From the NCBI GenBank assembly GCA_902385255.1, contig CABMEV010000012.1:1-64000 (forward strand): a stretch of DNA of 64,000 bases. Reading direction: 5' to 3'. Below the pieces are notes generated by a model. That model was given only the letters and a program-made list of their open reading frames with translations, ran no database searches and had not been told where the DNA came from. Shown here piece after piece: positions 58,164-61,598 of the stretch. The translations under genes were made by a program, and so were the position numbers. This DNA is from Candidatus Tiddalikarchaeum anstoanum (GTDB lineage Archaea > Nanobdellota > Nanobdellia > Tiddalikarchaeales > Tiddalikarchaeaceae). Each line of letters begins with the position of its first letter. The first letter of the stretch is position 1.

Positions 58164-58282
58164 AAAGGAGAACTTTTATCGTAAACTATTTATTTTAGCG
58201 CTGCTCATTAGATTCTTGTAGGACTACTAATACGCATTAGAGTTTAGGTGTTAGACTGTTTGGCACGCTCCTGTCCCGGGCG
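58164..58282 (+). repeat. Dispersed ~120-bp repeat, copy A (ends at tRNA-derived core)
   Basis: Shares AAAGGAGAACTTTTATC, AAACTATTTATT, AGCGCTGCTCA, then a TTGTAG...CTAC hairpin and TAGGTGTTAG with copies at 60639 and 61463. It lacks the TATATATAA box of the other copies. It ends in TCCTGTCCCGGGCG, the tRNA-Asn 3' end with one change. Confidence 0.75.
58269..58282 (+). other. Putative attachment site (tRNA-Asn 3'-end copy 1)
   Basis: 13 of 14 bases match 54062-54075. It is separated from the intact tRNA by 4.2 kb and sits at the end of repeat A, as expected for a distal attachment site. Confidence 0.5.
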
Positions 58283-58313: not shown

Positions 58314-58970
58314 ATGATTTCAGTTCAAGATTTGTATAAAAAATGGGCAAGTTCTTACGATACTGATATTAATGGAGTAATATATTTAGAGGAAGAGGTT
58401 ACTAAAAAATGGTTTAATTTTAAGAATAAAACTATTTTAGACTTGGGCTGCGGCACAGGAAGATATGCAATACCTTTATCCAATTCAAATAAAGTTGTAG
58501 GTGTTGATTCTAGTCAGTCAATGCTTGAAATTGCACGCAAAAAAATAAAGAATAAAAATATTACTTTTGTAAATAGTGATGTAACTAATTATACTCCTTC
58601 GCAAAAGTTTGATGTTATATTATCAATGCTTGTTTATGACCATGTTAAAAATTTAAAGAAAGCAATAGGTGTTGTTAAGGATGCGAGCAAGAGAGGAACT
58701 GAATTGTTTATTTCTAATGTTCATCCTTATCGCGCATTTTTAGTATCTTTAAATAAAAATAGAGCAAGATTCCCTCATGGTTATGAGAGCTATCAATATT
58801 ATCATCCTTTGGATGAGTATCTTCATTTACTTCGTCCATTAGGTTTTGAATTAGTTGATTATAAAGACTTAATATTTACTAAAAAAATGTTAACTCCAAA
58901 ATTCAAAAAAGCAGGAGAAGAAGAAAACGAATTAGTTGCGGTAATATACTATTTTAAAAAAATTAATTAA
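58314..58970 (+). CDS. SAM-dependent methyltransferase
   Basis: 218 aa, small class I enzyme. Motif I LDLGCGTGRYA at about 42-52, acidic VVGVDSSQSM as motif II, and DVILSMLVYDHV as motif IV. Members of this group methylate small molecules; no substrate can be named. TATA-like AAAGTTAATATCG at 58285-58297, directly after the tRNA-derived core, is 24 nt before the ATG, so its promoter forms the left edge of the second cassette. Confidence 0.85.
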   Translation: MISVQDLYKKWASSYDTDINGVIYLEEEVTKKWFNFKNKTILDLGCGTGRYAIPLSNSNKVVGVDSSQSMLEIARKKIKNKNITFVNSDVTNYTPSQKFDVILSMLVYDHVKNLKKAIGVVKDASKRGTELFISNVHPYRAFLVSLNKNRARFPHGYESYQYYHPLDEYLHLLRPLGFELVDYKDLIFTKKMLTPKFKKAGEEENELVAVIYYFKKIN

Positions 58971-59041
58971 ACTTTTTCTATTCTTTAGCGTAAACCTAAA
59001 ACTCCTATTTTTTTAATAAACAAAATCTTTATATTATATAC

Positions 59042-59081
59042 TTACCTGTTTTTAGGTATGATTATACCTGAAATAAGGTAA
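59042..59081. promoter_or_regulatory. 40-bp palindromic operator of the MNT/HEPN operon
   Basis: Half-sites alternate as TTACCT-N6-AGGTA-N6-TACCT-N6-AGGTAA. Same-orientation half-sites repeat every 22 bp, so all lie on one helix face. A TATA-like CTTTATATTATAT ends just before it and the MNT start codon is 7 nt after. Binding would block the start site; the winged-helix MNT protein is the obvious candidate repressor. Confidence 0.7.
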
Positions 59082-59087
59082 TGTTTT

Positions 59088-59708
59088 ATGTTGACCCAGA
59101 AGCAGTTGATTTTGTTAAGTGTGTTTGTTCCTAATCTGTTTAAGGAGTACTCTTTTTCAGAATTGAAAAGGGCTTTGGCTGAGAAGTCTAACAGTGTTTT
59201 GCAGAATGCTCTTAAGCAGTTTAAGAGTGAAAACTTAGTTGTTGAGAGAAGTATGGGCACGTCTAAATTGTATAAGATTAATCTTGATAATAATCTGGTT
59301 TTTGATTATATTGGTATAATAAATAAAGGTAAGTTGTCCAAGCAGGTTGAGAGAACAATTAGTCTGATTAAGGAAGAGGTTGATAAGTATACTTTTTTTT
59401 ATTCAGTAGTGATTTTTGGCTCTTGGGCGGTTGGTGAGGAGAGAAAAGATTCGGATTTGGATATTGCAGTTTTTATTGAAAAGGATGAGGATAAGAAGAA
59501 GGTTGAGTCTGCTTTGAATTCTGCAGAACAAAAATCATTAATTAAATTGGACAGCCATGTTATTTCTCAGGATGAATTCTTGGAAATGCTTAGACTAGAT
59601 GAGGAAAACTTAGGTAAGGAGATAGCGCGTAAGCATCTGGTTGTGCATAACAGCAAACTTTTTTATTCAGTGTTAATTAAGGGTGTGAAGAATGGATTCA
59701 AACTTTAA
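59088..59708 (+). CDS. MNT-type nucleotidyltransferase with N-terminal winged helix (antitoxin)
   Basis: 206 aa. Residues 1-70 form a winged helix (SFSELKRALAEKSNSVLQNAL). The nucleotidyltransferase core has VVIFGSWAVGEERKDSDLDIAVF, with G111-S112 and catalytic D123 and D125. In MntA/HepT pairs the MNT protein neutralises the HEPN partner, in studied cases by AMPylation. It starts just after the palindromic operator and overlaps the HEPN gene by 17 bp. T-rich codons contrast with the A-rich partner gene. Confidence 0.88.
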   Translation: MLTQKQLILLSVFVPNLFKEYSFSELKRALAEKSNSVLQNALKQFKSENLVVERSMGTSKLYKINLDNNLVFDYIGIINKGKLSKQVERTISLIKEEVDKYTFFYSVVIFGSWAVGEERKDSDLDIAVFIEKDEDKKKVESALNSAEQKSLIKLDSHVISQDEFLEMLRLDEENLGKEIARKHLVVHNSKLFYSVLIKGVKNGFKL

Positions 59709-60165
59709 ACTTTACTTATCAAGATCCGAGAACGAGTTGAACTTGGCAGGAATAATATTTCAACTAAGCATCAACAAAGAATTACAGTTAGATATTTTCA
59801 AAGTAAAGCCGGACACCTATTTTAGTGCTGCAATATCTCACGCGTATTACTGCATATTCTATGCAGCTAAAGCATACTTATTGACGAAAAATGTGAAGAC
59901 TAATCCTCCAGAAGAGCATAGGAAGACCTTTGAAGAGTTCAAGAAATTAGTGGACAAAGGAATAATTGACAAAGAGCTGCTGGAACTCTACGAAGATGCA
60001 TTGATAAAAGCAGACGCGCTCCTTGATATATTTCAGCAGGAGAAAGGAAAGAGAGGAAAATTTACTTATAGAAAACTGCCTCAAGCAAACCAAGAGCCTG
60101 CAAATGAAAGCTTGGAACACGCTAAGACATTCTTCAAGCACATGTACAACCTTTGCGAAATATGA
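59692..60165 (+). CDS. HEPN-domain protein (partner of MNT)
   Basis: 157 aa, all helical. YFSAAISHAYYCIFYAAKAYLL near 42-63 is the characteristic second HEPN helix, and EEHRKTFEEF follows. I cannot see the R-x4-6-H motif of RNase-active HEPN toxins, so this may be a non-nuclease HEPN, as in many MNT-linked proteins. It overlaps the MNT gene by 17 bp, giving translational coupling. Confidence 0.8.
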   Translation: MDSNFKLYLSRSENELNLAGIIFQLSINKELQLDIFKVKPDTYFSAAISHAYYCIFYAAKAYLLTKNVKTNPPEEHRKTFEEFKKLVDKGIIDKELLELYEDALIKADALLDIFQQEKGKRGKFTYRKLPQANQEPANESLEHAKTFFKHMYNLCEI

Positions 60166-60598: not shown

Positions 60599-60638
60599 GG
60601 AAGTTTTCTTAGCTGGAGTTACATTAAAATTCGATATC

Positions 60639-60760
60639 AAAGGTATATATAAGGAAAGGAGAACTTTTATCGCAAACTATTTATTCTAGCGCTGCTCAGT
60701 AGATCTTTGTAGATTATAGGACTATAAAGAAATATCTAATTATAGGTGTGCTAGTTTTTT
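60639..60760 (+). repeat. Dispersed ~120-bp repeat, copy B, with promoter, hairpin and T-run (candidate small RNA)
   Basis: AAAGG before TATATATAA (60644-60652) gives a strong archaeal BRE/TATA, predicting a start near 60673. The downstream part contains AGCGCT, then CTTTGTAG (60705-60712) pairing with CTATAAAG (60722-60729) around a 9-nt loop, and ends in TTTTTT at 60755-60760. That is a complete transcription unit of about 85 nt. The tRNA-derived core found at the end of A and C is absent. The 315-bp gap between genes here is otherwise empty except for a doubtful small frame. Confidence 0.7.
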
Positions 60761-60971
60761 GAGTACTTCCTGGTTCTTTTTTGAGAATTTAAAAAATGAT
60801 AGTTTGGCCATATCTTTTGTTATTTTTTTAAAAACTGCTGGCTGTTTCTTAGTTAAAGTTACTTTAGGAGTAGTCATATTAATATTATCTTATTTTATCA
60901 TTTATAACTATTTTCATTTATTAAAATCTTTAAAAGAGTCTAATATGTCCTGCATGGACTCAGCAAGGTAA
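60759..60971 (+). CDS. Doubtful small membrane protein
   Basis: 70 aa from a TTG at the end of repeat B's T-run. Residues about 16-52 are two hydrophobic stretches (AISFVIFLKTAGCFLVKV, LGVVILILSYFIIYNYF). The last 58 bases overlap the Doc gene on the other strand. It could be a small toxin-like membrane peptide or chance; no homologue is recognised. Confidence 0.25.
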   Translation: MSTSWFFFENLKNDSLAISFVIFLKTAGCFLVKVTLGVVILILSYFIIYNYFHLLKSLKESNMSCMDSAR

Positions 60972-61414: not shown

Positions 61415-61462
61415 AATAACTAATTTAAACTTTTAGACTAACATTCAAGTATTATTAATCTC

Positions 61463-61598
61463 AAAGGTGTATATAAGGAAAGGAGAACTTTCATCATAAA
61501 CTATTTATTTCAGCGCTGCTCAGATAGATCTTTGTAGAGCATAGGACTATAAAGAAATTAGAGGCGTATAACAAATTTAATACTGCCTGTCCGGGGCG
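61463..61598 (+). repeat. Dispersed ~120-bp repeat, copy C (ends at tRNA-derived core)
   Basis: Begins AAAGGTGTATATAAGG (TATA at 61468-61476), shares AGGAGAACTTT, AAACTATTTATT, AGCGCTGCTCAG and the hairpin CTTTGTAG (61530-61537)/CTATAAAG (61547-61554) with copy B. It ends in CCTGTCCGGGGCG at 61586-61598, identical to the last 13 bases of tRNA-Asn. It fills the 233-bp gap between the Doc gene and the histidine kinase. Confidence 0.75.
61586..61598 (+). other. Putative attachment site (tRNA-Asn 3'-end copy 2)
   Basis: Identical to 54063-54075 over 13 bases. The right edge of the proposed cassette array, 50 bp before the end of the histidine kinase gene. Confidence 0.55.

Follow-up and report, generated by a model that had tools for sequence, protein, structure and literature searches.

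The locus analysed here raises the question of which protein reads an array of four short half-sites in front of an archaeal MNT/HEPN operon, and with what effect on that operon. Among the two-gene modules of archaea, HEPN/MNT pairs belong to the most abundant, and Makarova et al. (2009, PMC2701414) considered their putative antitoxin 'unlikely to be a transcription regulator'. An earlier note on this DNA had proposed that the MNT protein may repress directly by means of a winged helix of its own. All coordinates refer to the window, which is the whole stretch of 64,000 nucleotides that was analysed.

The array and its promoter

The letters at 59042-59081 of the window were read as TTACCTGTTTTTAGGTATGATTATACCTGAAATAAGGTAA. 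The alternation of TACCT and AGGTA half-sites with constant 6-bp spacers, as described in the earlier note, was confirmed exactly over 59043-59080, with half-site starts exactly 11 bp apart and with GTTTTT, TGATTA and GAAATA as the three spacers. The elements of the promoter and array were as follows.

59020-59027, + strand: possible BRE, A-rich (from the sequence)
59028-59040, + strand: TATA-like promoter element TTTATATTATATA (from the sequence)
59043-59047: half-site 1, TACCT
59054-59058: half-site 2, AGGTA
59065-59069: half-site 3, TACCT
59076-59080: half-site 4, AGGTA
59043-59058, no strand: outer palindrome 1 (half-sites 1 and 2), TACCT-GTTTTT-AGGTA, with the conserved CC-N8-GG core
59054-59069, no strand: inner palindrome (half-sites 2 and 3), AGGTA-TGATTA-TACCT, with the most symmetric spacer among the dyads
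59065-59080, no strand: outer palindrome 2 (half-sites 3 and 4), TACCT-GAAATA-AGGTA, 22 bp from palindrome 1

The array is located between the TATA box and the ATG of the wHTH-MNT/HEPN operon. Since the TATA-like box occupies 59028-59040 and an archaeal start lies about 25 bp further on, transcription would be expected to begin at approximately 59057-59065, within the array; the claim that the array covers the predicted transcription start was therefore upheld for a start position that is itself inferred. The agreement score of the four half-sites was 20/20 in the 117-bp intergenic stretch, compared with a maximum of 17 among 2000 dinucleotide shuffles. The two-palindrome operator occurs once in its own genome (G000, 1.16 Mb in 13 contigs); no second copy was found in that genome, where the nearest sites had 3 mismatches, a level which was matched by a backward control pattern.

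Directly upstream of the operator there is a SAM-dependent methyltransferase gene (58314-58970, + strand) whose 3' end is approximately 70 bp from the array. A dispersed intergenic repeat beginning AAAGGAGAACTTTTATCGYAAACTATTTATTYTAGCGCTGCTCA was present in four copies in the genome, three in the window (58164-58221, 60630-60790 and 61458-61558) and one at G000:C13:5777-5860. The three copies in the window surround the operon and two of these flank the segment containing the methyltransferase and MNT-HEPN genes. No Rfam match to this repeat was obtained.

The wHTH-MNT protein and its HEPN partner

The two genes of the operon are given below.

59088-59708, + strand: wHTH-MNT protein, 206 aa (ORF, Pfam, AlphaFold2 and structure comparison)
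59692-60165, + strand: HEPN protein, 157 aa, PF05168, predicted toxin partner (ORF and Pfam)

Pfam analysis of the 206-aa protein returned the MNT domain PF01909 (31.1 bits, cutoff 21) and PF18765, and the MNT motif GSX10DXD (G111, S112, D123 and D125) was invariant in alignments of 17 and of 39 sequences. An AlphaFold2 model built from 39 sequences (pLDDT 93.8) contained a winged helix made up of helices 4-13, 23-30 and 35-47 and a two-stranded wing at 51-64, while the remainder had the MNT fold. The recognition helix in this model is helix 3 of the wHTH, residues 35-47, starting at residue 35. Comparison with VIA-align revealed that residues 1-83 resemble ArsR/MarR-type repressors (Z 10-11) and that the C-terminal residues, from about 83/84 to 206, match MntA (Z 10.8). 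The model and the ArsR/MarR-type matches thus support the statement that the MNT protein has its own winged helix, at N-terminal residues 1-83. The same statement had called this an uncommon addition to MNT antitoxins, which is wrong for this phylum, as homologues were present in 119 of the 371 genomes sampled; most of the homologue matches, among those listed, span the wHTH region. No single chain convincingly spanning both the wHTH and MNT domains was seen in the PDB comparisons, which is not proof that such a chain is absent.

The HEPN ORF overlaps the 3' end of the MNT ORF and its product matched PF05168 with 25.1 bits (cutoff 22). Conserved residues of the HEPN protein were R121, Y126 and H76, with Y126 present in 117/117 aligned sequences, and the R-x(4-6)-H motif was absent from the 157-aa sequence. 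The HEPN gene was next after the MNT gene in 120 of the 132 homologous loci with enough sequence. Six operator-positive loci had no HEPN match directly downstream, of which some may have been missed. The order of an MNT gene followed by an overlapping HEPN gene, together with the presence of GSX10DXD, agrees with the naming of this locus as an MNT/HEPN operon. Because the HEPN protein is PF05168, with the conserved Y126 and no RX4H, the module is by its sequence a Class II (PF05168) HEPN/MNT pair. Membership of Class I (HepT/MntA) was rejected since the HEPN protein is not PF01934/PF08780 and is without RX4HXY, and since the NCBI equivalog MntA_antitoxin scored 34.1 bits against a cutoff of 60. 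Membership of AbiE type IV was likewise rejected, as the partner is a PF05168 HEPN protein and not an AbiEii (DUF1814) nucleotidyltransferase. A Fic/DOC family protein (PF02661; 60914-61414, - strand), which is another possible toxin-like gene, adjoins the MNT-HEPN operon.

Conservation of the array and covariation with the recognition helix

Upstream regions were read for 110 homologues from the sampled genomes of the phylum and 106 of these were long enough for array scoring. Fifty-three of the 106 scored at least 17/20 at a period of 22 bp, while other periods between 14 and 33 bp gave 0-2 homologues each, with none at 21 or 23 bp, and 20 shuffled upstream sets gave 0 homologues at this score. 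A second database scan with a ten-sequence alignment returned 48 loci, in records labelled Pacearchaeota, Woesearchaeota and Nanoarchaeota and one each labelled Diapherotrites, Nanohaloarchaea and Aenigmatarchaeota; there were no matches when genome contigs were scanned with the single protein as query, and no relatives in viral contigs in one scan. The 22-bp array was present in all close second-scan homologues with upstream sequence and absent from a more distant 'KPWVF'-type clade. The merged set contained 72 operator loci in which the CC-N8-GG core was nearly constant in both palindromes. A TTTAWATA-like box (up to 2 mismatches) was located 4-19 bp, mostly 6-10 bp, ahead of half-site 1 in 69 of the 72. 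Three palindromes in 22-bp register were found at L152 and, read by eye, apparently also at L011. The four-half-site form was absent from approximately half of the homologues, the more distant ones, of which some keep one palindrome and others none that is clear. A search for matching palindromes before homologous wHTH-MNT genes had been named as a check in the earlier note, and the 22-bp tandem array does precede most close homologues, the opposite of homologues lacking any palindrome.

The pattern WACCW-N6-WGGTW-N6-WACCW-N6-WGGTW gave 16 sites in 16 of the 371 genomes, compared with 0 for a reversed control, and comparison of gene coordinates placed all 16 close upstream of wHTH-MNT genes. 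A wider regulon for this motif class was rejected as there was no second operator in the own genome and no W-pattern site elsewhere than at wHTH-MNT genes in the 371 genomes.

Two further observations were made on the upstream regions. The second outer spacer (59070-59075) has an A-tract that is conserved across the family, with A at array position 30 in 69/72 loci, and which is weaker in the first outer spacer of the merged loci; it perhaps serves bending or start-site melting. A second wHTH-MNT clade with the helix KxKPWVFN (L035, L042, L046, L056, L061, L163 and L165) has another conserved upstream element, approximately AAAGTAACGATARTTATTTAAATAAGTAAC, across the TATA box, which is probably a different operator design.

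Half-site variants among the homologues included TACCT, AACCA, TACCA, TTCCA, ATCCT, TCCCT, GTCCT and ATCTC. When operator distance was compared with protein distance in sliding windows the association peaked at one short stretch of the protein.

59187-59207, + strand: codons of residues 34-40, SNSVLQN, the putative specificity-determining stretch at the operator-protein covariation peak

With the MNT domain controlled for, the partial r at this peak was 0.60. Of 200 covariation windows, the ten highest-ranking all overlapped residues 30-45, and residues 34-40 beat any non-overlapping stretch; the best single columns were 39 and 36, with 35 ranking fourth. The residue 34-40 window was also the best of 200 for nearest-neighbour prediction of the operator at <40% or <35% MNT-domain identity. 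Q39 was accompanied by T at half-site base 1 in 24/25 loci and other residues at position 39 by A in 23/25. At base 5, A occurred with N36 and T with S36, a relation which also holds in a separate Y37 subfamily (5/5 and 14/14). The covariation peak falls where the recognition helix begins in the AlphaFold2 model, which was built without operator data. We have to note that these counts come from related sequences, so that a Fisher p-value calculated from them is no true probability and a better control is given by the remaining windows of these proteins, and that the covariation could in part be due to shared descent. Paralogues within one genome had different half-sites with matching helices (for example L026/L044/L051 of G359, L013/L041 of G256 and L058/L066 of G111). 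The specific covariation between half-site sequence and recognition helix supports direct action through the wHTH of the MNT protein itself and not a separate regulator, as had been proposed.

Proposed autorepression and related systems

We consider it very probable that the array is an operator dedicated to autorepression, to which the wHTH-MNT antitoxin binds through its own wHTH. Two dimers (or one tetramer) would most likely occupy the array, roughly along a single face of the DNA, with recognition helices contacting the four half-sites, one per helical turn. As the array follows the TATA box, precedes the ATG and covers the expected start site, protein on the array is proposed to keep the transcription machinery from assembling or starting at the MNT-HEPN operon. 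A dimer on the inner dyad is favoured since the inner spacer is the more symmetric (2.06 of 3 pairs compared with 1.38 and 0.92 for the outer spacers) and since several distant homologues retain an inner-type palindrome alone, e.g. GGATAATATTATCC, although the inner half-sites deviate more from the locus consensus than the outer ones (29 and 37 mismatches versus 18 and 22).

Binding of the array by a separate, unlinked transcription factor is very unlikely, as the half-sites vary with the recognition helix encoded by the adjoining MNT gene and differ between paralogues of one genome, and sites of this class precede only wHTH-MNT genes in the 371 genomes. The inverted repeats might alternatively work in RNA, as a leader hairpin or attenuator, and the second palindrome would fall in the leader, where a 5-bp hairpin is possible. 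However, the leader fold did not stand out clearly from those of shuffled sequences (z -1.39), the position of the first palindrome is at or ahead of the expected start site, the array has no Rfam match, and in L025, L026, L041 and L155 the array is entirely upstream of the TATA box, so that the operator would act there as DNA. The RNA hairpin was rejected on the leader fold and on these upstream arrays, and we find the RNA reading scarcely credible. The operator may also serve an activator role of the wHTH-MNT protein instead of repression.

It is a realistic possibility, to which we give somewhat less than an even chance, that the MNT-HEPN complex is the main form that binds and that HEPN or its AMPylation state determines the affinity, in a manner comparable to type II conditional cooperativity; this would be a refinement of autorepression, not its opposite. 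The regular position of the HEPN gene after the MNT gene favours such a complex, as does the Shewanella MntA/HepT hetero-octamer of two MNT and six HEPN (PMC7641770), and four half-sites would suit a complex bearing several wHTH domains. The six operator-positive loci without a downstream HEPN match argue against it, as does the finding that AbiEi autoregulation is not increased by its toxin (PMC7319586). Returning to autorepression by the wHTH-MNT protein, we tentatively suggest, as a proposal that could well be wrong, a single enzyme-repressor which nucleotidylates HEPN and reads the operator, in which the state of HEPN or the nucleotide level would feed back on transcription, while the residue-base code (residues 35, 36 and 39 versus bases 1, 2 and 5) would insulate paralogous DPANN modules from each other.

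In the Class II clade described here, a conserved operator and a recognition code would be joined to a predicted DNA-reading domain within the antitoxin itself. Testing the predicted code would take a single purified protein and a handful of short DNAs, and the operator motifs flag family members from DNA alone. No prior description of the operator or the residue-base code was found in the literature searched, in which subscription journals were thinly covered.

MarR/ArsR-family dimers bind palindromes, and these repressors share the fold of residues 1-83; here the fold is joined to an MNT enzyme and the palindromes are in tandem at a fixed 22-bp register. Among HEPN/MNT pairs, the Shewanella MNT protein SO_3165 is a repressor of its own promoter, to which it binds and which contains two palindromes (PMC4621449). 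The Class I pair SO_3165/SO_3166 (HepT/MntA, type VII) resembles the present module in having the MNT gene before the HEPN gene and in GSX10DXD. In SO_3165, however, no DNA-binding domain can be recognised, and the two palindromes of its promoter differ from each other (PMC4621449), whereas here there is a fused wHTH and four matching half-sites in strict 22-bp register, and the Shewanella HEPN protein has the RX4HXY which is missing from the HEPN protein here. Class II pairs (PF05168/PF01909), as presented in the accessible part of PMC7641770, share the PF05168 HEPN protein with conserved tyrosine and no RX4H, and the GSX10DXD of MNT; that part mentions no DNA-binding domain or operator, both of which the module here has, the operator being predicted, and its authors were aware of no biochemical study of Class II as of 2020.

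The PADLOC profile PDC-M05A matched the MNT protein (E 1.5e-11, residues 5-182 on profile positions 14-184 of 201) with the wHTH part included, while the HEPN protein of the window and three homologous HEPN proteins matched no PADLOC model. PDC-M05 is a candidate archaeal defence system of a nucleotidyltransferase and a HEPN protein with an unconfirmed antiviral role, and its description, in the portion of the source available, gives no regulation (PMC12988326), whereas the module here has a putative operator. AbiEi and Rv2827c are wHTH antitoxins which autoregulate by way of inverted repeats across the promoter, two for AbiE and four for Rv2827c (PMC7319586), and in this they work like the system proposed here. 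Their repeats are 23 bp, and toxin and wHTH antitoxin are two proteins, of which the toxin is the nucleotidyltransferase-like one (PMC7319586), whereas in the present module wHTH and nucleotidyltransferase are in one protein, with another domain order and with HEPN as the partner.
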